Source: a virus. Taken from it: a stretch of DNA of 26,867 bases. Shown piece by piece: positions 1,438 to 26,867 of the stretch. The DNA lies in IMG/VR virus record IMGVR_UViG_3300036761_002268, positions 1-26,867 of that record; one strand, 5' to 3'. The notes beneath the pieces are model-generated. The model was given only the letters and a program-made list of their open reading frames with translations, was not told the DNA's origin and did not search any database. The position numbers and the translations under genes are program-made. The number at the start of each line of letters is the position of its first letter. Positions within the stretch are counted from its first letter, which is position 1.

Positions 1438-1667
1438 GGGAGTGCTTTTGCAACCGCTGGCGTCAGCACCACGGCGCGGAGTAGTTGAAACGGGCTCTTG
1501 CCTGTCATGAGATCCTGCCAGCCCTTGCTGTCGCGAGCTTGCGCCACGTAGCCCTCGCCACGTGGCAAGCACCGCAGCGCCATGGGGCCAAGCTTCAGCT
1601 CCCAGAGAATTGAGGCCTGCACGCGGCTCTTGCCCGCAGCGCGAGCCTGGCTCGGGTCGTCGCTCAC
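1434..1667 (-). CDS. Small hypothetical protein (77 aa)
   Basis: This 77-aa product starts at GTG 1667, overlapping the stop of the 494-aa gene upstream as GTGA; its own stop overlaps the next start as ATGA. It has a charged N-terminus, a beta-like centre (SILWELKLGPMALRCLP, then GYVAQARD) and a C-terminal helix. No motif is recognised. The two flanking overlaps are the main support that it is a real gene. Confidence 0.65.
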   Translation of the reverse strand: MSDDPSQARAAGKSRVQASILWELKLGPMALRCLPRGEGYVAQARDSKGWQDLMTGKSPFQLLRAVVLTPAVAKALP

Positions 1668-3148
1668 GACGCAGCCTTCGCAGTCTTTGGTTGGTACCCG
1701 GGCAGATCCCACGGCGTGTGCGTGAGCCGCCAGTCGCGCGCGAATAGCTTGTGCAGCTCGATGCCTTGCTGGCAGGCCTCCCACGAGAAGACGGTGCCTA
1801 CCGGCGGCTTCCACTCGACGGCCACAATGCCTACGGTACCATTGGGCAAGAAGCCGTAGAACGGCAAGCCCTTGCTCTTCGGCTTCGCCTTCTTGGGCTT
1901 CGGCAGCTGGTAGGCCTCGGTCTTTCGCAGCTCGACGCGCGAGAGCAACGTGACCGGGTGACCGTACTTCTGATCGGTCTCATGCTTCTTGACGGTGCCG
2001 ATCAAGAACCACTCGCCGTCGAAGTCCTCGACGTTGCTGAGCGAGCCTGAGCTGAAGGTCTTGAGCGCGCTGTTCTGCGCGTCGAGCATCAGCAGCATCA
2101 CGCCGGTGCCAAATTCGCTCTCGTAGCCGCGCGCGAGTTTGACCGTGATCTTGGTGGTGATGCGCTCGCCGACGGTGCCGACATGGGGACCAGCCTCCGG
2201 GCGCTCGCGGCGCTCCTGCTCGCGACCCATTGCCTTGTCGTAGGACACCGGCAGGCTCGCGAGGATGCCCTCGGTGCGCTCACGCACGGTGCGCTCGGCG
2301 CAGGCGAGGCGAGAGTTGTGCATGTAGTCGGAGGAGTCCTTGGAGGCGAGCACCCAGGCGAGCACCACGGCGGCCTGCTCACGCTGCGCGTCGGTGGGCT
2401 GCATAGCTTTCCACGACTTGATTAGTTCTCGATCCCCCTTGAAGCCTTTGTCCACGGGGCACGGCGCGCAGATGAAATCGCAGAAGCTGCGGGTCGATCG
2501 CTCATCGCTGCCGCTCTTGTGAAATCCGCGGAGTCGAATGTTCGCGACGGCAGCCGCCAGGTAGTCCAGCGGCGTGGACTCCGGTTGCCATCGCCCAAAC
2601 CCCCAGCCGCCCTCCTCCGTATCGCTGAAACCCTTGAGAAACTCCGACCAGCACCTGAACAGCTTGACGGCGCCCTCGACGTCATCCGTGCGGGTGTAGT
2701 CACGCAGGCACTGGCGACCGACCTGGATAATGTTGCCCGACTCGTCGCGCACCAAGAACGTCGCAGCGCGCGAGCGGTCCAGGCCGCAGTGCTGGCAGCG
2801 GCTGCCGACGACGCGATAACCATCCAGATCGCCGTCGTAGCCCGGCGCGCGCAGGACGAGGTTGCCGCCGTCAAGGTGGTCGAGCTTGGCGACAAACGCG
2901 AAGCCGGCAATCACGGGAACGGTGCCCGTGAGCCTGACGTCCAGCACCCAGCGCACCTTGCGTAGCTCGTTAGCTAGGTAGGCGTCGCTCTTGGTCACGA
3001 ACTCCGATCGGGGGGCACCCGCGGTGACAGTGACGGGCGCCATGCCGAGCTTGGCCGCGCGCTTGTTGAGCTGGGCCACGCCGGCTCGGAGGACATCCAG
3101 GCGACTGGCCGGGATGACGTAGCTGCCGTCCTTGTTCTGGCGTTCCAT
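1664..3148 (-). CDS. Zinc-knuckle and OB-like phage/plasmid protein, unknown function (494 aa)
   Basis: The protein has a conserved-looking zinc site: C118 and C121 (CQHCG) pair with C147 in a GNIIQVGRQCLRDYT segment. This arrangement, CxxC, then about 25 residues, then QVGxxCL(R/K)D(Y/F), occurs in a family of uncharacterised phage and plasmid proteins. The C-terminal third contains beta-rich segments ending GTVKKHETDQKYG, then TLLSRVEL, which resemble the OB-like tail of such proteins. A lysine-rich stretch (PKPKKAKPKSKG) follows. It is the first gene downstream of the CRISPR region and has its own candidate promoter. The start ATG at 3148 lacks a clear Shine-Dalgarno sequence. A nucleic-acid role is plausible but unproven. 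Confidence 0.85.
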   Translation of the reverse strand: MERQNKDGSYVIPASRLDVLRAGVAQLNKRAAKLGMAPVTVTAGAPRSEFVTKSDAYLANELRKVRWVLDVRLTGTVPVIAGFAFVAKLDHLDGGNLVLRAPGYDGDLDGYRVVGSRCQHCGLDRSRAATFLVRDESGNIIQVGRQCLRDYTRTDDVEGAVKLFRCWSEFLKGFSDTEEGGWGFGRWQPESTPLDYLAAAVANIRLRGFHKSGSDERSTRSFCDFICAPCPVDKGFKGDRELIKSWKAMQPTDAQREQAAVVLAWVLASKDSSDYMHNSRLACAERTVRERTEGILASLPVSYDKAMGREQERRERPEAGPHVGTVGERITTKITVKLARGYESEFGTGVMLLMLDAQNSALKTFSSGSLSNVEDFDGEWFLIGTVKKHETDQKYGHPVTLLSRVELRKTEAYQLPKPKKAKPKSKGLPFYGFLPNGTVGIVAVEWKPPVGTVFSWEACQQGIELHKLFARDWRLTHTPWDLPGYQPKTAKAAS

Positions 3149-3164
3149 GGCTCGGTATACGGCT

Positions 3165-3194
3165 AGTATATACGGAACCTTCCCCGGTGGTCAC
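3165..3194 (-). promoter_or_regulatory. Candidate promoter for the 494-aa gene and downstream cluster
   Basis: On the minus strand a -10-like TATACT (3170-3165) lies 17 bases upstream of the ATG at 3148. A weak -35-like GTGACC (3194-3189) precedes it with an 18-base spacer. The adjoining gtatac and gtatatac palindromes might be an operator. The prediction is by eye only; the very short leader would agree with the absence of a clear ribosome-binding site. Confidence 0.4.
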
Positions 3195-3245
3195 CAGAAT
3201 TTTATAGGCCGCTAATCCCGTGGATTTAGCATGCTGAGGCCCCTG

Positions 3246-4033
3246 GTCTCGATCTTGAAGGCGTCGAGCAGCCGTTGTGGGAAGGGCGCGCCACTGTATG
3301 GCTACAAGACCAGCACCAGTCTCGATCTTGAAGGCGTCGAGCAGCCGTTGGGTGGGGTCTGCGGAGGAGGGGTTGGCGCATGGCCCCCATAGCGGTCTCG
3401 ATCTTGAGGGCGCCGAGCAGCCGTTGGGTGAACGCGCGGCGAACTCCAGCAGCGTTCTCCTTTTTACCAGTCTCGATCTTGAAGGCGTCGAGCAGCCGTT
3501 GGTGTAAACGCGCGCTCGATCTCGTCGGCCATGGCTACGTCATGTCTCGATCTTGAAGGCGTCGAGCAGCCGTTGATGGTCGAGCAGCCGCTGTGGGCGA
3601 ACAAGACATTCGCGCTCGATAATCCCGTCCAGGGGGTCTCGATCTTGAAGGCGTCGAGCAGCCGTTGGGTGACGAAGCGGGCGCACGCCGACTGCAGGTT
3701 GATCCGCGGTCTCGATCTTGAAGGCGCCGAGCAGCCGTTGCGGGGGATTGCCAGGAACCCCAGACCTACGAGCCACGAGCCAGGTCTCGATCTTGAAGGC
3801 GCCGAGCAGCCGTTGCGGGATGCAGCCGCCAGCGTGTAGACGGCGACGGACCAGTCTCGATCTTGAAGGCGCCGAGCAGCCGTTGCGGGCTCCAAGCCTG
3901 TCGATTTCTTCTCGCCCTGGTTGCCCTGTCTCGATCTTGAAGGCGCCGAGCAGCCGTTGCGGGTTGCGGGGCCTGGAAGGGTGGCTCGAAGAGTACGGGC
4001 GGTCTCGATCTTGAAGGCGCCGAGCAGCCGTTG
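3246..4033 (-). CRISPR. CRISPR array: 11 full repeats plus one truncated, 10 full spacers, no cas genes in view
   Basis: Eleven copies of a 32-base repeat (plus strand starts gtctcgatctt, ends gagcagccgttg) begin at 3246, 3319, 3395, 3470, 3544, 3636, 3709, 3784, 3854, 3928 and 4002. Spacers are unique and 38-44 bases long. The copies from 3709 on, and the one at 3395, carry C instead of T at repeat position 19. The copies from 3709 on are also followed by cggg, so the true repeat there may be 36 bases. A truncated repeat sits between the fifth and sixth copies. Uniform copies at the right and variable ones at the left suggest the leader is on the right and transcription on the minus strand, giving repeats that end in GAGAC. 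Iterons are less likely because the intervening sequences are unrelated. Confidence 0.85.
3580..3593 (-). repeat. Truncated CRISPR repeat inside the array
   Basis: The 60-base interval between the repeats at 3544 and 3636 is too long for one spacer. It contains tcgagcagccgctg, which matches the last 14 bases of the repeat with one change. Four bases (3576-3579) precede it and a normal 42-base spacer (3594-3635) follows. This is what a deletion removing most of one spacer and the first part of one repeat would leave. Confidence 0.75.
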
Positions 4034-4080
4034 CGGGGTGTCCCCGAAAAGAGCTAGGATTTCAAGGAGCGAGGGCCCGG

Positions 4081-4096
4081 TTTGCGAGCACCTCCG
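4081..4096. repeat. Leader direct repeat, copy 1
   Basis: The sequence tttgcgagcacctccg matches 4185-4200 at 15 of 16 positions, 104 bases away. It may be a binding site or the remnant of a duplication in the probable CRISPR leader. Confidence 0.5.
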
Positions 4097-4127
4097 CTTA
4101 CGGTAGCGGATCAGGCAGCCCAGTGTC

Positions 4128-4143
4128 TACCAGGGATTACCAG
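4128..4143. promoter_or_regulatory. Candidate operator: TACCAG double site in the CRISPR leader
   Basis: TACCAG occurs at 4128 and again at 4138, so the half-sites start 10 bp apart, on the same face of the helix. The same TACCAG-N4-TACCAG arrangement occurs at 8341-8356, directly upstream of the Cro-like gene. A shared operator for that regulator is the obvious inference. Confidence 0.45.
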
Positions 4144-4184
4144 TTTGACGACGGCTGCCAGTAAATATTCGCAGGATCCATCGT

Positions 4185-4228
4185 TTTGCGAGCGCCTCCG
4201 GGGTTTTGGCGACCACCGAGGCGCTCGC
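4185..4228. repeat. Leader direct repeat copy 2 with 11-bp inverted repeat
   Basis: Bases 4185-4200 repeat the element at 4081-4096. Within it, gcgagcgcctc (4188-4198) is perfectly inverted at 4218-4228, giving an 11-bp stem with a 19-base loop. The structure lies just beyond the stop of the 4232-4459 gene and could end its transcript. On the minus strand the stem is followed by an A-run, not a U-run, so it is not a canonical intrinsic terminator. Confidence 0.5.
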
Positions 4229-4231
4229 GCC

Positions 4232-4459
4232 TCAGCGCCGCCAAAGGCGCGGAAACAGACCATTGAGCTGCCGGCGCCGAGCCTCGCAGGGGGTACAGGG
4301 CTCGATACCCAGAGCCTTGGTGGCGCGCGCCACCATGTCTCCGGCCCCGTAGTGCCCCTGCGCGGCGCTCTGGTGCTCCTGGTGGGACTGGGCAAACGCA
4401 TCCACGCCTGCGGGCGCGCCAGCGGTCGCCTGCGCTCCACAGGCCGTGCAGCGCACGGC
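4232..4459 (-). CDS. Small zinc-binding protein with CxxCxxRRxxLN tail motif
   Basis: The product has two CxxC pairs: CTACG near the N-terminus, and CTPCEARRRQLNGLFP near the C-terminus after a GAGDMVARATKALGIEP segment. The combination GDxVAxxTxALGI, CxxCxxRRxxLN recurs in small hypothetical proteins of GC-rich phages and bacteria; no function is known. I place the start at GTG 4459, 8 bases after AGGGA and downstream of the previous stop. In-frame starts at 4516 (ATG) or 4585 (GTG) would overlap the upstream gene and cannot be excluded. Confidence 0.65.
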   Translation of the reverse strand, partial: AVRCTACGAQATAGAPAGVDAFAQSHQEHQSAAQGHYGAGDMVARATKALGIEPCTPCEARRRQLNGLFPRLWRR

Positions 4460-4470
4460 AAATCCCTGCG

Positions 4471-4677
4471 TTAGCTGGACGTACTGGACCCAACGGACTC
4501 GGGGGTGCTGCTGCATCGCAGGGCCAGGATAGCTCTGGCCGTCGCAAAAGTCAGCTGCTGGTGGTTGCCGGTCCCGGTTCGCCACTCCTGGCGGATTTCT
4601 ACCAGGAATCTCCCAGCGTGGGCTCGCACTCGCACGTCAGCGCCCGGCACCAACCACGCTAGCTCTTGGAGTTTCAT
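4471..4677 (-). CDS. Small hypothetical protein (68 aa)
   Basis: The protein starts MKLQELAWLVPGADVRVRAH and shows alternating beta-strand patterns followed by a helix and a Ser-rich tail. I chose ATG 4677 because AGGA lies at a good distance upstream. An upstream in-frame ATG at 4722 would form an ATGA overlap with the glycosyltransferase stop, as is usual here, but adds 15 residues with untypical codons. No family is recognised. Confidence 0.6.
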   Translation of the reverse strand: MKLQELAWLVPGADVRVRAHAGRFLVEIRQEWRTGTGNHQQLTFATARAILALRCSSTPESVGSSTSS

Positions 4678-10994: not shown

Positions 10995-12010
10995 GGCAGT
11001 TCGGAAATCGCGTCCCAGCCGGACAGGCGACGGGCTTCCACAACGTCCGCCATGCCGTTGGCTTTGAACAGTCTACCCTGGCCCGAGGTGGCGTCCGGAT
11101 CGAGGTTGCGTGCCCAGCGATTGCGTAGGTCATCCACGGTTGCGTCCGATTGTCCGTTGGCGATGTAGACCAGTGAGAGCAGGCTCACCGCATCCTCGCT
11201 CAGTCCACGCACATCGAGCGCAAGCAGCGCCACGTCGCTCGTAGCGATGATCAGGGTCGGATCTTCCAGCACTTCGTGCCAGAGCACGTACAGGTCAGAG
11301 CCGTCCGTCGTGACACCGGGAAGCGTGGTCACGATCTCGGCCGCCACTAGATTGTGCTCGACTAGCGACTTGTAGCTGTACGTGTCGAAGGTCTTCTCGG
11401 TGGTCTTTTCGATGTCGACATTCACCGTGTTGACGTAGACGATCTTTCCTTCGACGCTCGCGACTCTGTTGAGTTCATACGGTTCGAGATCGAGATCGAC
11501 TCCCTCCTCTGTCTCCTCGTTCTCCTCGACGTGCTCACCGGTGAGACCCTGCTTCAGCGCCGCTGCCCACCAACGATCGGCCTCGCGTGAACGATCATTT
11601 GTGTCAGAACAAATGCCGTCGCCAGTGTCATGCGTCGAAACATCCACACGGTGCCTGAATTGCAGGTGAGCGGCGTCGCAGATCGCGGAGTACAGCGCGG
11701 TGCCGTAGCCCATGCCTTTGACGGTAACGCCTTGGGGCGTATGCACACGCGGATAACCTGTCGCAGCTGCGGCATCTTCTTGTCCGCTAGCTAGGTAGCC
11801 GTAGCCGAGCTTTTGAAGCAGTGACTCCTGGCGTAGGCTGCGAATGCTGACGTACTCTCCATCCGTCGTGGCAAGCACGGGCTCTTTCGTCTTGGGGTTG
11901 ATGATGAGGCCCAGCGTAGTGAGCCCCGCAATGGAGCGCGTCGCGCGGGCTATCTCCGGTCCTGGCGCCTGGAGGCGAAATTCCTCGTTGCGACGATAGC
12001 GGCGCATCAC
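10991..12010 (-). CDS. GNAT-like domain protein, probable polyvalent-type effector (339 aa)
   Basis: Residues about 95-158 look like an acetyltransferase core: VKGMGYGTALYSAICDAA (97-114) resembles the acetyl-CoA loop, and CSDTNDRSREADRWWAAALKQG (134-155) resembles the following strand-helix seen in phage GNAT-like domains. A very acidic linker (EENEETEEGVDLDLE) and a 160-residue C-terminal region of unknown fold follow. The gene is directly behind the two TPN-modular genes, joined by a GTGA overlap (ATG at 12007 is also possible). Enzyme activity is inferred from pattern only; a structural protein is not excluded. Confidence 0.65.
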   Translation of the reverse strand: MMRRYRRNEEFRLQAPGPEIARATRSIAGLTTLGLIINPKTKEPVLATTDGEYVSIRSLRQESLLQKLGYGYLASGQEDAAAATGYPRVHTPQGVTVKGMGYGTALYSAICDAAHLQFRHRVDVSTHDTGDGICSDTNDRSREADRWWAAALKQGLTGEHVEENEETEEGVDLDLEPYELNRVASVEGKIVYVNTVNVDIEKTTEKTFDTYSYKSLVEHNLVAAEIVTTLPGVTTDGSDLYVLWHEVLEDPTLIIATSDVALLALDVRGLSEDAVSLLSLVYIANGQSDATVDDLRNRWARNLDPDATSGQGRLFKANGMADVVEARRLSGWDAISELP

Positions 12011-14973
12011 GACACGCTCTCGCCAGTGCCGCGGCGGTAGCGGCGCACGATCTCGAAGCTGCTACTCGAAGGCAGGCTCCCGAAACTCACGGCACAATCA
12101 TCGGTCCCTTCTGCCGCGCCACCGCTGGCCATCTGTTCTGCCTCGTCGAGCGGGTACGGGCCGTAGGGGCCTTCTTTGGGCGTGCCGTCGGGAAGGATCA
12201 CCCAGACGTAGTGGCCGAAACTGTTTGGTGTTTGCCCCGCTCCGTTGAGCTTGAACCCGATGGTGCTGCCACCAGAACCCCCGCGCCTTGGTGGAAGCCT
12301 ACGGTTCGCTTCTTCTAGCGAAACGACGTCGCCGCTTGGAATCATCCTGACCAAGCCACTTCTGAAAACACCATGCTCGTCAGCGTCACCGACGTGATCG
12401 TAGCCGTAGTCACCGCGCTTGCTCGTGTCGATCGTTTCGCGATGAACCGTGGTTCCGGAGTCACCCGTGGTGAAGTCGTAGCCAGAGAAGCTCTGCTCCC
12501 GTGTGCGGGAGGTTCTCTTGCGGGCGTTCGGTGTCTGATCAGGCTTCCGATGCCTGGCCATTCGCGCCGCAGCGAGTTCATTGCGTTCCGCAGCGAGTTC
12601 CTTTCGAAACTGCTTCGTAAAGCTCTCGTTGAAGCTGCGTAGCGCCCGGAAGGCTCGATCAAACCCCGACTTCGCTGATCGCCACTCAGGTGTCGCTGTG
12701 ACGCTGTCAGGCGTCCTCCCCATGGGACCCTTCGGAAAGCGGTTCAGTTCGTCGCTGTATCTACGAACTTCCGCATCCAACTGATCCCTGACGCGCTTCG
12801 CTTCCTCGAATGTCATTGCGTTGGGCGTGTAACGCCCGTGACGGGCATTCGGTGTTTGCTGAGTCTCGTTAGGAGTCACGATGACAGCTGGGATCTCGTC
12901 CCAGTTCATGGCGGTGGCATAGTTCACGCGACCGCGCCCATCAGCGATTGCCACCATGTTGGGTGCCTCTACGATCACGATAGGCGGCATCTGCTCCGGC
13001 GAGGCCCACTGCTCGGCACGGTCCGCCCACCCGGAGCCACGGAACGACCGGATGTCTTGTGCGTCGGCGCCGCTGTCCAGATCCAGCCAGCTGCTTAGGT
13101 CATCGTACTGACCCAAGTCTTGCATGCGGATCATCATGGGCTCGGTTACCGCGACGTTCGACCTGTTCAGGTCAGAGTCGTAGTCGCTCATGTGATCCAG
13201 AGCTGCGTCGATGTCGTCGTCCAGGTTGCTCAGGTTGTAGTGGGAGGTTCGCTTGCGGGCGTTCGGTGTCTGCTCGCGCCTGATCCCAGAAATTCCGAAC
13301 TTTTCCAGCGTGACCCCGCCGCGCACCAGAGCCGCGCTCAGGTCGTCCGGATGCACATTCTCCCGCGCGCGCCTTCGATATTCAGCGTCGCTCACCCCGC
13401 GGCGCTTGATCTCGCCGCCGATTGCGCCGTCGAGTTCGTCGCCGTGAAGATGGCTCAGTAGCGTTGAGCAGTAGGCGTCCAGATCATCGATCCTGGTGCT
13501 CTCCGCCTCATCCGGTATGTTGCCGCTTGGGGAGTTCGGTGTGTGCGCGTGGCGCAGGTAGATCGCGAAATCTAAACCTAGTTTCGTGAGGTCACTCTCA
13601 CTGAGGAAGTTACCATCAGGGCTAACTAGCTCGCGACCGCGACGCCCCTGTTGAACCACCCAACCAGACTTCACCAGACGCGCGATATGATCTCCGCGTA
13701 GTGCAAATTCACCACGGACACTCACCTGCTTGCCCAGGACATCTGAAGCCCGCCTTTTCGCAGTCGGGCTCAGCGTGTCCGTAAATCCAAACCATGAGTC
13801 ATGCAGGTCTTGCGCCGCCTTGGCGTCAGACTCAGCTCCCCTGGCCCTGCTGCGGCTGACTTCCCTCAAGCGATCGATCTCGTCAAGTCGCTCATCCTTA
13901 GCGAATACGATCGCGTTGGGCGTGTGTCCCTCCCTCGCAGCGCGAGACGCTAATCGCGCTTTTTCTGCCGCTAGGTTGGCTCGGCGGGTAGCGGCGTCCG
14001 CGGTGTGCTTTCCCTCACGGTGCCAATTCAAGCAAGCCGAGCACGCCACGATGGGGGCTTCGACCTTCGGTTTTCTTGCTGCCTTGCGGGGCCGCATGAA
14101 TCCCTGTTTTTGCAGATCAGCAAACCGAGATGCGGGGGATGTTGGGTCGCTCATGTTTGGGGTGTGCTCCGCGTCTCGCGCAAATCGTTTCACTGCCTGA
14201 ATGATCTTAGCTTTCTCCTTCTCCGTAGGTCGATCGCGTCCTCTCATCTCCCAGCCTGCTGTCGGCTGAACATTGGGCCCGCGCTCGTAATCTAAATCGT
14301 ACACCCGGACAGTTAGCCTGCTCGTGCCACCATCGATCTCCACAAGGAATGATCCCGGTCGAGGTGATGAAACTCTCTCGATGGTGAACTTTTCACGGGC
14401 GGGTTTTGGGCGTCCGTAACTGTAAATGTCTGCCATGTTTGGGGTGTGCTCCACGTTCTCTTGCCAGTCGCCAATATCCGTAGCGATGTCGCCGATGGTC
14501 TCGTTGTCGCGGCGCGGCAGCGCCTTTCGTTCCATCCGAGCGATGGCTCCTATCCGGAAAAGCGCCACGCTTTCGTGCGGGATGTCGGTGGTGCTCAGCG
14601 TGTCACGCAGCATGATTCCATCCAAGCCTTTCTCCTTGAGAAGGCCGACCATCCAGCCCCAGCGCTCAAGGATCCCGAAGTCCGCGTGCTGCCTCCAATC
14701 CTCTTCGGTCCAAGCACCCATGCCGTGGCGGTTGGCTTCGTTCTGTGCATCGAACGCTGCTCGAATTGCGGGGTTGCTCAGATCAGTCAGGGCGGCCAGC
14801 TTGACTCTCGGTTTTAGTTCGATCTCCCAGACGTACGAGACGTCGCTCTTCGAGTACGACTTGTTGCCGTACTGAAAGGCGACTCGCGGGTTGGCCGCTA
14901 GCCACAGGATCCCAAAGCCGTTCAGCCTGGGCTTCGAGTAGTCCTTCGTGGTGCCGTGGTAGAGACGCATCAT
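12007..14973 (-). CDS. TPN-delimited modular (polyvalent-type) protein with N-terminal ART-like domain (988 aa)
   Basis: The protein is cut into modules by (H/Q/Y)TPN motifs, with T at 177, 271, 351, 478, 569, 707, 716, 814 and 915, plus VTPN at 700. Module 1 resembles an ADP-ribosyltransferase: YHGT (5-8, H6), LWLAANPRVAFQYG (23-36, Y35), GLDGIMLRD (116-124) and HESVALF (133-139, E134), a possible H-Y-E triad. Module 4 starts with a lone CSAC zinc knuckle preceding it. Module 6 ends in a ParB/sulfiredoxin-like strand-helix (PPIVIVE, then DGRGRVNYATAM, then IPAVIV). Module 7 is coiled coil. The last module reads YVWVILPDGTPKEGPYGPYP and ends FEIVRRYRRGTGE. Start: ATG 14973 (ATGA overlap). Possibly co-injected with phage DNA. 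Confidence 0.85.
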   Translation of the reverse strand: MMRLYHGTTKDYSKPRLNGFGILWLAANPRVAFQYGNKSYSKSDVSYVWEIELKPRVKLAALTDLSNPAIRAAFDAQNEANRHGMGAWTEEDWRQHADFGILERWGWMVGLLKEKGLDGIMLRDTLSTTDIPHESVALFRIGAIARMERKALPRRDNETIGDIATDIGDWQENVEHTPNMADIYSYGRPKPAREKFTIERVSSPRPGSFLVEIDGGTSRLTVRVYDLDYERGPNVQPTAGWEMRGRDRPTEKEKAKIIQAVKRFARDAEHTPNMSDPTSPASRFADLQKQGFMRPRKAARKPKVEAPIVACSACLNWHREGKHTADAATRRANLAAEKARLASRAAREGHTPNAIVFAKDERLDEIDRLREVSRSRARGAESDAKAAQDLHDSWFGFTDTLSPTAKRRASDVLGKQVSVRGEFALRGDHIARLVKSGWVVQQGRRGRELVSPDGNFLSESDLTKLGLDFAIYLRHAHTPNSPSGNIPDEAESTRIDDLDAYCSTLLSHLHGDELDGAIGGEIKRRGVSDAEYRRRARENVHPDDLSAALVRGGVTLEKFGISGIRREQTPNARKRTSHYNLSNLDDDIDAALDHMSDYDSDLNRSNVAVTEPMMIRMQDLGQYDDLSSWLDLDSGADAQDIRSFRGSGWADRAEQWASPEQMPPIVIVEAPNMVAIADGRGRVNYATAMNWDEIPAVIVTPNETQQTPNARHGRYTPNAMTFEEAKRVRDQLDAEVRRYSDELNRFPKGPMGRTPDSVTATPEWRSAKSGFDRAFRALRSFNESFTKQFRKELAAERNELAAARMARHRKPDQTPNARKRTSRTREQSFSGYDFTTGDSGTTVHRETIDTSKRGDYGYDHVGDADEHGVFRSGLVRMIPSGDVVSLEEANRRLPPRRGGSGGSTIGFKLNGAGQTPNSFGHYVWVILPDGTPKEGPYGPYPLDEAEQMASGGAAEGTDDCAVSFGSLPSSSSFEIVRRYRRGTGESVS
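12507..12537 (-). repeat. TPN-boundary DNA repeat B, copy 1
   Basis: These 31 bases match 13242-13272 at 30 positions. They encode QTPNARKRTS at the start of module 8 of the 988-aa protein. The flanking modules are not alike, so the boundary itself, not a whole domain, is duplicated. Confidence 0.7.
12829..12860 (-). repeat. TPN-boundary DNA repeat A, copy 1
   Basis: These 32 bases match 15738-15769 in the neighbouring gene at 31 positions. They encode QTPNARHGRY and include the 13-base inverted repeat gcccgtgacgggc. In both genes a second PN motif follows at once (YTPN here, YVPN there). Confidence 0.75.
13242..13272 (-). repeat. TPN-boundary DNA repeat B, copy 2
   Basis: This is the partner of 12507-12537, with one mismatch in 31 bases. 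It encodes QTPNARKRTS at the start of module 6 of the 988-aa protein. Confidence 0.7.
14152..14170 (-). repeat. TPN-boundary DNA repeat C, copy 1
   Basis: These 19 bases are identical to 14434-14452. On the coding strand they read GGAG, then codons for H-T-P-N, then ATG. The module after the motif therefore begins with Met (MSDPTSPAS), as if a former start codon had been fused in frame. Confidence 0.65.
14434..14452 (-). repeat. TPN-boundary DNA repeat C, copy 2
   Basis: This copy is identical to 14152-14170. It encodes EHTPNM; the module after it begins MADIYSYGRPKP. Confidence 0.65.
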
Positions 14974-17156
14974 GCCTCGTAGGCGCGCTCCCACCATTCG
15001 GTGGCCACCGCATGCGGGTCCTCACCCTGCTTGGTAGATTCTAGGTAGCTCGCTTGCCCTTCAAGCTCTTCGAGTGCGGCATCCTTTTTTTCTACATGCT
15101 CTTTCATGGCCACGAAAGCCAAGTCTGTGGGGCCCACGCCGGCCGCCTCAATGAGAGCTAGGGCTAGAGCGACCGAGCGCTCGGCGTACGCAATACTTTC
15201 GCGCTTGGCTTCCGCGTCCTTCAGCACCTTCGAGATGACGCCGTCGATCCTGACACTGCGGGCAAGTTCTTTTTTCTCCTCAATCTCGATAGCGGCAGAT
15301 ATGGCTCTAGGTTTCAGATCGCGCAAAAACTCTGCGTGGCGCTTGGTGCCGCGCCGGATCTTCAGCTTCTTCAGCTGTCCAGAAATCTCATCATCGAGCC
15401 CACTAAAGTCGGCGGTTCGTTGCCCGTATTCGTAGTATGAGGCGCGCGACTCCGAAGCATCTCGACCTCGGCCACTGCGTTCCCACGTTTCGTTCAGGCC
15501 CCTGGCGATCATGTTCAAGGACACATCGCGAGCGCCAACGTAACCCACCAGTGGGCTGTGATACCTGGATGCCAACTCCATTTGATCCGTTTTCAGGCCA
15601 ACGCTCTGGAGCACCGCGACACATCCCGCCAGCACGGCACCGTACTCGTTCACGTCACCACCGCGACGCAGCTCTTCCATCACGGCATCGTATGCGCCGC
15701 TGAATAGTTCATCGGGTGAAGATGATTGGTTGGGGACGTAACGCCCGTGACGGGCATTCGGCGTTTGCTCTGGTCCGAGGTAGTCGTCGATGTACTCGCG
15801 CGCCGCGCGTATCGTTGAGACCATCTTGGTGCCGCCGCTACCAGCCTCACCCAAATGGATCAGGTACTGGCGACCAATGTTGCGACCCTTGCCGGAGCGA
15901 CGGTGTATTCCTTCGCCGGTGTAGTAGCCCAACTGGGTGGCGTTCTCGATCACTTCGATCCGAAGGCCCCTGTACTCCGTGTCAGATGCGTTCGGCGTCT
16001 GTTCATCGTAACGCCCGTCGCACCGGGACTCGCACCCCACTGCGCCACCCTCGCTAAAGCCGCCGTCGATCCACTTCATTTCCTCGCCGCACCTTGCGCA
16101 TGCCGTTCTATCTCTAAGCACTCCACCCCACGGACTCACCTGGTGACCTCGCGCGATTGCGTCTACCAGCGCTTTCTCTTTAGGTGAACGGTTTCCCAAG
16201 GAAAGGATTCGGATCTTTCCAGCCAGTGCCGTCGCCGCGCGCGACGCGCGCCAGTCCCCACCCGGGCCATCGCTCTCACTGTTTGCGATGTCGTTGAGCA
16301 GGTTGGCGACGTCAATGCCGCGCTCGGCTGGGTACGCGATTTCGGAGGCCGTCACCTGAGTGGGCCACCAATCCTCCCGCTCGTCGTCATGATCGTGGTC
16401 GTCGCAGTGGATCTGCACGATGGACATCTGCGCGGGGGTCACCTTGACCCGTTCGCGGCCTAACATGTCGATCCCGTTCGGCGTGTGTCCCTGCGCGTTG
16501 CTCGGTTCAAGCATGTCCCTGGAGACCAGATCCACGACTACCTCGCGCGTTGCTGGATCGCCGCATGCACCACAGTCAAATTTAGGCTTGTCGTAACGGA
16601 GCATTGACTCCGCTAGCTGTTTACGCCGCGTGGTCGACCCCTCGGCCTCCTCAAGACAGTCTTCACAGATACCAAATACCTTTGTCTCGTGCGGCGAGGC
16701 TGGGCGCTCAGGTCCCTGTTTACCGATGCGTGAGAGGTACAGCTTCTCGCCGATGTCCCATGCCGCATCGCCCTCCCATGCCGTGTAGCTCGGGTGCTTA
16801 TGCGGCGGATTGTCTCTCCGTTGTAGTCTCACTCTGCCTTGATCCAAGGCCTCGCCGAGCGTCAGCACATCGCCGTTCGACAATCGAATCCTGTCCGATG
16901 CTTTGGTTCTGCCATTCGGCGTGTGCTTGGGATCGTTGCGGTCATGGTAGAGTTCACCGAACCGCTCACGCGATAGGTACGGTAAGCCCGTGAGGTGGTC
17001 CAGGTCTACGCCGGTCCCAAGCGCCCATGCGGCTTGAAAGCGCGTGTGGACGGGCACCACGCACTTGACGGGCCAACCGATTGACCTGGCTCCATCGGTC
17101 GCAGCCGCGCGAGTCGCAAAGATGCGAACCTTCGAACCGTCAACCTGAACGCTCAT
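14970..17156 (-). CDS. TPN-delimited modular protein with zinc motifs and C-terminal helical domain (728 aa)
   Basis: TPN motifs lie at T79, T225, T387 and T465, with a VPN at 474, giving five modules. Module 2 has two CxxC pairs (CEDC, CGAC). Module 3 has a His/Asp-rich HCDDHDHDDERED and a CARCG knuckle with further cysteines in GCESRCDGRY. Module 4 is small and beta-rich (GLRIEVIENATQLGYYTGEG). The final 250 residues are helical, with charged coiled-coil stretches. I start it at ATG 17156, preceded by AGGA at good distance; a TTG at 17192 is less likely. Its stop overlaps the start of the 988-aa gene. No catalytic site is recognised. It shares a near-identical 32-base boundary with its neighbour, so the two genes are related in their linkers but not in their modules. 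Confidence 0.85.
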   Translation of the reverse strand: MSVQVDGSKVRIFATRAAATDGARSIGWPVKCVVPVHTRFQAAWALGTGVDLDHLTGLPYLSRERFGELYHDRNDPKHTPNGRTKASDRIRLSNGDVLTLGEALDQGRVRLQRRDNPPHKHPSYTAWEGDAAWDIGEKLYLSRIGKQGPERPASPHETKVFGICEDCLEEAEGSTTRRKQLAESMLRYDKPKFDCGACGDPATREVVVDLVSRDMLEPSNAQGHTPNGIDMLGRERVKVTPAQMSIVQIHCDDHDHDDEREDWWPTQVTASEIAYPAERGIDVANLLNDIANSESDGPGGDWRASRAATALAGKIRILSLGNRSPKEKALVDAIARGHQVSPWGGVLRDRTACARCGEEMKWIDGGFSEGGAVGCESRCDGRYDEQTPNASDTEYRGLRIEVIENATQLGYYTGEGIHRRSGKGRNIGRQYLIHLGEAGSGGTKMVSTIRAAREYIDDYLGPEQTPNARHGRYVPNQSSSPDELFSGAYDAVMEELRRGGDVNEYGAVLAGCVAVLQSVGLKTDQMELASRYHSPLVGYVGARDVSLNMIARGLNETWERSGRGRDASESRASYYEYGQRTADFSGLDDEISGQLKKLKIRRGTKRHAEFLRDLKPRAISAAIEIEEKKELARSVRIDGVISKVLKDAEAKRESIAYAERSVALALALIEAAGVGPTDLAFVAMKEHVEKKDAALEELEGQASYLESTKQGEDPHAVATEWWERAYEA
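15738..15769 (-). repeat. TPN-boundary DNA repeat A, copy 2
   Basis: This copy matches 12829-12860 at 31 of 32 bases although it lies 2.9 kb away in another gene. It encodes QTPNARHGRY just before the long C-terminal module of the 728-aa protein. Confidence 0.75.
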
Positions 17157-17236
17157 GCCGGGATCCTGCCAGCGTTCAGGGAAAAGGGGCAACTTCGGGG
17201 AGCTACAGCGAAATTACCCGCTGCGTAGGCGGATCT

Positions 17237-26285: not shown

Positions 26286-26867
26286 TCATTCCCCTGCCAA
26301 GAATTTGCGACGCTTCTCGGCAGCTTCGGGTGTGAGAGTCACCCGATTCGTTCTGTCGGCGGGCGCGGCGGTGACGGTAGACTTGGCGAGCCGGCAGTAC
26401 TTGTCCACGGCATTGCCGTCTTTGAAAATGGTCTGGAGGCTTTGGAGTTGCGGCTTGCTCTTGATCAGCTCGTCCGAGCTGGCGCCGCGAATGGCCTGGC
26501 GCATCCGAGCCTGCGGCACGCCATCGGCCCAGCGCTCAATGAGTGTCTTCACCCGGGAGTCGAAGCGGCCATGGCCGTCGGACGCAGCCAGCAGGTCGGG
26601 CTCGCAACCGAAGGTGGTGGCGACGAGCGTGTTCAGCTCGATGGTCTCGGCCCATAGCTCCGGATTGGGGTATTGCAGCGACGCTGCAAACGGGTCCTTT
26701 TGCCAGAGCTGCGCTCGGTGCCGTAGGTCGGCCACCAGCGGATCGGGTGTCTGGGGTGCACTGACCCCGGACTGCTCAGAGATCCGATCAGGAACAGGAA
26801 CCGAACCGAACCGATCCGATCCGACCCCTTCGATGGGGGATGGGATGGGGGATGGGATGGGGGATGG
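26286..26867 (-). CDS. Phage replication initiator / helicase-loader-like protein, C-terminal part (runs off right edge)
   Basis: The frame stays open to the last base: upstream of an in-frame GTG at 26735 there are 44 further sense codons and no stop. So the gene enters from the right, and at least 193 residues are visible. The first twelve read PSPI three times, a repetitive linker, followed by a Ser/Pro-rich stretch. The C-terminal part has MRQAIRGASSDELIKSK and LQSLQTIFKDGNAVDKYCR, the AIxG...LxTIF+D...VxKY pattern seen at the C-terminus of many phage replisome-organiser proteins. The position directly ahead of dnaB supports initiator or loader function. A start at 26735 alone (149 aa) would be the alternative. 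Confidence 0.75.
   Translation of the reverse strand, partial: PSPIPSPIPSPIEGVGSDRFGSVPVPDRISEQSGVSAPQTPDPLVADLRHRAQLWQKDPFAASLQYPNPELWAETIELNTLVATTFGCEPDLLAASDGHGRFDSRVKTLIERWADGVPQARMRQAIRGASSDELIKSKPQLQSLQTIFKDGNAVDKYCRLAKSTVTAAPADRTNRVTLTPEAAEKRRKFLAGE
26801..26825. repeat. Pentamer repeats in the replication gene
   Basis: Five consecutive copies of ccga followed by a, a, t, t and c form a 25-base tract inside the coding frame (linker). Together with the 12-base repeats next to it, this could be an iteron-like region, as in phage initiator genes that contain the origin. Confidence 0.6.
26832..26867. repeat. 12-base tandem repeat, at least three copies, cut by the window edge
   Basis: Three perfect copies of gatgggggatgg occupy 26832-26867. 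On the coding strand each copy encodes Pro-Ser-Pro-Ile. The copy number beyond the edge is unknown. Confidence 0.85.

Follow-up and report, generated by a model that had tools for sequence, protein, structure and literature searches.

The stretch of DNA analysed here (the window) is an entire IMG/VR virus record, linear and 26,867 bases long, and the CRISPR array of this phage-like contig probably has type V-M repeats and is parted from its effector gene. The relatives of this array adjoin cas12m, its repeats have the fold of those relatives, and they score well with a covariance model (R1) of cas12m-adjacent repeats. Together, these data indicate a type V-M guide array without an effector at the expected place. 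The description of the contig as a putative phage is based on IMG/VR and on PHROG matches.

With the full 36-nt repeat counted, the array occupies positions 3246–4037 in crRNA sense on the minus strand, with its leader end on the right. The eleven repeats and ten unique spacers named in a preliminary description of this DNA were borne out, and a pattern of three ATCGAGAC at array spacing occurred nine times in the window compared with 0.00 times in shuffles. Direct repeats are separated by unique spacers of regular length (34–40 nt with the full repeat counted), and these ten spacers are all different and mutually unrelated. Repeat 1, the leader-proximal copy (4002–4037, minus strand), reads CCCGCAACGGCTGCTCGGCGCCTTCAAGATCGAGAC and scores 27.4 bits with the V-M covariance model. 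The repeats at 3928–3963, 3854–3889, 3784–3819 and 3709–3744 on the same strand are identical to it and score 27.4 bits each, and repeat 6 (3636–3671) and the older repeats (3544–3579, 3470–3505, 3395–3430, 3319–3354 and 3246–3281, all minus strand) score 16.9–29.0 bits. The identity of the five right-hand repeats (3709–4037), as against the drift in the six to their left, puts the leader at the right end and makes the minus strand the crRNA strand. Part of the 5' half of a repeat is present a second time at 3579–3597 (minus strand), and this partial copy inflates the spacer at 3580–3635 to an apparent 56 nt; once this copy is subtracted, the true spacer is 38 nt long (3598–3635, minus strand). 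The array lies in an ORF-free gap (3149–4231). Its putative leader side (4038–4231, minus strand) has no cas12m, which relatives with upstream sequence do have, and no sigma-70-like consensus promoter was found in this putative leader.

The exact window repeat had no match in IMG/VR or in 84,980 genomes, the repeat core was likewise unmatched in the 84,980 genomes, and Rfam gave no match. Sister arrays were found by scanning for any array with three ATCGAGAC ends, a method that used no protein and no knowledge of Cas12m. The scans also returned unrelated tandem repeats, and several of the arrays among the matches listed had the motif CTCGA-N11-TCGAGAC. These sister arrays were present on a contig of 179 kb (L025/G001), on contigs of 150 and 147 kb that represent one phage in two samples (L035/G002 and L036/G003), on an 8.8 kb contig where the array adjoins phage structural genes by ORF reading (L039/G004) and on a phage-like contig of 68 kb that had been binned with a deltaproteobacterial MAG (L108, the same as G005:C75). 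L197 (70 kb) and L198 (36 kb) came from a second scan, and a search of 395 genomes from the phylum to which G005 belongs returned nothing beyond the phage-like contig found before.

In all four sister loci with upstream sequence (G001, G002/G003, G005:C75 and L197), cas12m or a remnant of it was directly upstream of the array on the same strand. Across the relatives with readable upstream sequence, the gene ended within approximately 0–170 nt of the first repeat. The contigs of L039 and L198 start inside or at the array, so the upstream gene is not visible there. The 601-aa protein directly upstream of the G001 array is Cas12m, as judged from PADLOC (Cas12u1, E = 1e-96) and from comparison with the PDB (Cas12m 23vw, E = 1e-72; Cas12m2 8hhl, E = 7e-20). 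A 545-aa Cas12m homologue ends at the array in G002, and L197 has a complete cas12m upstream. The Cas12m remnant of G005:C75 (L108 2879–3926) is in two frames with its middle missing, and the adjoining array still looks orderly. The array of G002 (L190 15800–17120) is split by a small ORF and by duplicated pieces, with its repeats spread over 1.3 kb.

An outward search from Cas12m led to Virus Rctr197k and to plasmids of Meiothermus silvanus, Methylomonas and Pelobacter. All four carry arrays with the repeat plan CAA...[stem]GCTCnn[stem]...nnGAGAC. V-M systems are common on plasmids too. In Virus Rctr197k (KX853510; L199 2950–4818) a gene annotated as 'similar to transposase' is Cas12m, and an annotated CRISPR follows directly after it. 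The RuvC residues D-E-D are kept in the Cas12m proteins of G001, L197 and Rctr197k. In the G002 protein (L190 14174–15811) a K replaces the second acidic residue, and with D-K-D this Cas12m is predicted to be unable to cut.

Twelve repeats could be aligned without gaps. They fold into a stem (positions 8–11 with 20–23) and a pseudoknot (14–18 with 30–34) and end in GAC. In these two helices 95.4% of cells were paired compared with 74.5% in shuffles and 25–44% in slid controls, double compensatory cells numbered 22 compared with 6.4 in shuffles, and none of 500 shuffles reached the observed covariation. Seven other CRISPR arrays ending in ATCGAGAC fitted only 1–5 of the 9 fold pairs, and no Cas12m was found at their loci. 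The L197 array (2005–2742) contains two repeat populations, CTCTG/CAGAG and CTCGA/TCGAG, so that a double compensation is seen inside a single locus. When single repeats were folded thermodynamically, the pseudoknot did not appear, such structures being beyond this method, and the window repeat yielded no signal (z = 0.87 and -0.32). As a comparison, the crRNA in the cryo-EM structure of Cas12m2 has a 36-nt repeat and a 20-nt guide with a disordered 5' end, a pseudoknot of positions 15–20 with 29–34 (numbering converted from -36..-1), a non-canonical G14:A35 pair and a C36 that is read base-specifically (PMC10442227). The window repeat has the same plan, but the register is shifted by one pair and its pseudoknot is one pair shorter. 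The crRNA of GoCas12m is described as a triplex plus pseudoknot (PMC11013384).

R1 was built from seven cas12m-adjacent repeats and included the pseudoknot helix; the window and the contig-end arrays were left out. Applied to the window, it ranked all 11 repeats as the top 11 matches (16.9–29.0 bits), and the best other site reached 10.4 bits. The model recovered the Meiothermus MsCas12m plasmid array, which was outside the training set, with up to 33.8 bits, and it also recovered the L198 and L039 arrays. Non-V-M arrays with the same 8-nt end scored at most 13.5 bits. Because R1 ranks, recovers and separates arrays in this way, we assign the window array to the type V-M (Cas12m) repeat family, and this assignment is very likely correct. 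The window repeat has the features seen beside cas12m, namely a length of 36 nt, the stem with the pseudoknot and a 3' GAGAC.

The effector half of the system is absent from the window. Profiles of Cas1 and RAMP proteins gave no match there, PADLOC models found no Cas among ten window ORFs, and tblastn with three Cas12m proteins gave no significant match. A Cas12m profile run against all six frames of the window reached a best E of 2.1, and as a control it recovered the broken Cas12m of the sister locus at E = 4e-36. These results support the earlier reading that this phage-like contig carries an orphan array without a cas gene at its flanks. Since no cas12m lies beside the array, the window does not hold a complete type V-M system; no cas genes were found in the 26.9 kb of this record, a linear fragment of the genome. 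The place that cas12m occupies in the relatives is taken by a 117-aa ORF with CxxC pairs (4232–4585, minus strand), which has a weak PHROG match of unknown function and no similarity to Cas12m. Downstream of the array is a phrog_2319 gene (1664–3148, minus strand) of unknown function, from a family present in large phages and some plasmids.

Besides phrog_2319, the genes of the window include DnaB, SSB, Dam, peptide deformylase and glycosyltransferases. Neither a terminase nor a capsid gene was recognised in the window proteins scanned, and the contig is therefore probably a fragment. Searches of IMG/VR and the phage collection with the array-neighbouring gene and DnaB turned up nothing closely related to the contig. 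Two ORFs of 996 and 740 aa (12007–17192, minus strand) contain the motif TPN ten and four times, mostly as H-TPN or Q-TPN, counts that were unreached in shuffled sequences. The spacing of the motif divides modules, as linkers or polyprotein processing sites would. The right end of the window (26830–26867) is a short tandem repeat of the GATGGGATGGGG type.

The missing effector may be in the unseen part of the genome, may be supplied by another element or may have been lost. Either another part of the fragmentary genome or a different element in the cell is the probable source of Cas12m, and action of Cas proteins in trans on the window array is possible. According to published work, Cas12m contributes to the processing of its own crRNA and requires no tracrRNA; its recognition motif is 5'-TTN, the heteroduplex that it forms spans 17 bp, and it silences through binding rather than cleavage (PMC11013384, PMC10442227). 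We propose that the minus strand of the array would be transcribed and that a Cas12m from the rest of the incomplete genome, a plasmid, a co-infecting phage or the host would bind the repeat pseudoknot and process the transcript to crRNAs of about 56 nt. The first 17 nt or so of each spacer would then bind DNA beside a TTN motif, and the bound complex, making no cut, would stop competing elements or host genes from being transcribed. The ten spacers would serve as silencing guides if a Cas12m meets the array transcript. More tentatively, the phage itself may have a guide array but no Cas12m at all, with guides that load into the Cas12m of a plasmid, the host or a co-infecting phage; we regard this as possible but rather doubtful. 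If true, the phage would redirect the DNA-binding silencer of another element against that element or against rivals.

The spacers gave no match to phages, plasmids, the collected loci or the other scanned collections, and no protospacer or PAM was found. Two spacers were also compared with IMG/VR using wobble-tolerant patterns, again with no match, and this applies to the newest, leader-proximal spacer (CGCCCGTACTCTTCGAGCCACCCTTCCAGGCCCCGCAA; 3964–4001, minus strand). One spacer has 23 of 24 nt in common with a RecD-like helicase gene of Roseobacter/Phaeobacter phages (E = 0.8), which we take as chance because the match is confined to the spacer half away from the seed. The fourth spacer had been said to resemble the start of a coding region, as a protospacer from a gene would. 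Its minus strand does carry ATGGCCGACGAGATCGAG, but the origin from a gene has no database support.

The main rival to an array that is parted from its effector and still usable is a relic, in which cas12m was lost from the lineage, the guides are no longer read and the repeats are merely recognisable. We consider this unlikely, although several observations agree with it. The usual place of cas12m lacks the gene, the sister locus G005:C75 has only a frame-broken and internally deleted copy, the older repeats of the window have drifted and half of one repeat is duplicated. However, the five leader-end repeats are identical. In the six older repeats changes are seen only at positions 1–4, 18 and 23, mostly positions that are disordered in the known structure, and every pseudoknot pair is kept in 11 of 11 repeats, with position 18 staying paired as A-U or G-U. 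Variation at all four of positions 1–4 has a probability of P = 2.5e-4 under uniform drift, and these positions fall within the part that is disordered in the Cas12m2 structure (PMC10442227). This end-biased drift hints at selection that keeps the scaffold, with other causes of end variation possible.

A type III origin had been suggested from spacer length. As an orphan type III (or type I) array, it would use host Cas6 and a host effector. The 34–40 nt spacers and the 8-nt 3' end do resemble those of type III handles, and in the MAG with which one sister contig was binned, other contigs carry type III and RT-Cas1 genes. By contrast, the array beside the RAMP genes of that MAG has an unrelated repeat. 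No type III locus or host array with the window repeat was found in the 84,980 genomes, and the sister repeats adjoin cas12m. The window repeat covaries with cas12m-adjacent repeats and scores as V-M, so the fold, the score and the gene adjacency of independently found relatives show the type III guess to be wrong, and we hold this origin to be very improbable.

Slightly less probable still is that the repeats are decoys that, like Racr anti-CRISPR repeats, occupy the rival Cas12m of a plasmid or phage instead of guiding it. Inhibition of host Cas complexes by phage repeat RNAs has precedent (PMC11656645), and G001 has one lone repeat outside its array. Even so, ten full-length unique spacers exceed what a decoy needs, and known Racrs are mostly single repeat units. 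The lone V-M repeat of G001 (G001:C1 154377–154400) is far from the array of the same phage and is possibly a relic or a decoy RNA. The repeats are tandem and intergenic, as an iteron, an origin or another structural repeat without guide function would be, but the repeat-spacer anatomy with unique spacers of regular length, the Cas12m crRNA fold and the sister loci adjoining cas12m make this reading negligible.

These data show that an orphan array can be typed from its repeat fold alone, which here moves the window array from type III to the non-cutting type V-M. In several unrelated phages the V-M array comes with an effector that is intact, broken or missing, and these phages form a natural series. 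This series bears on the use of guided silencing by phages and on whether arrays work with the Cas12m of someone else. Phage V-M systems and cas-less phage arrays were both known before. Both viral arrays that lack cas genes and V-M systems of plasmids and prophages have been described (PMC11656645), and viral effectors from landfill cluster with Cas12m/V-U1 in a study that also discusses orphan viral arrays (PMC12607003). No published case of a phage V-M array parted from its effector came up in a brief literature search.

The V-M systems (formerly V-U1), such as those with Mycolicibacterium Cas12m2, Gordonia GoCas12m and Meiothermus MsCas12m, have the same 36-nt repeats with the stem, the pseudoknot and the terminal GAC. 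Like the window, they have no adaptation genes nearby, and the window repeat scores with the V-M model; unlike them, the window has no cas12m. At the loci of G001, G002/G003, L197, G005:C75 and Virus Rctr197k, the array likewise belongs to a phage or phage-like contig and shares the repeat architecture of the window. By contrast with the window, they keep cas12m directly upstream, as a broken copy in G005:C75. The cas-less viral arrays and mini-arrays, such as those of the Saccharolobus viruses SPV1 and SPV2, resemble the window in that viral guides occur without cas genes and possibly use the Cas proteins of others. Known mini-arrays have 1–2 spacers and repeats identical to those of host arrays, whereas the window array has ten spacers and V-M repeats.
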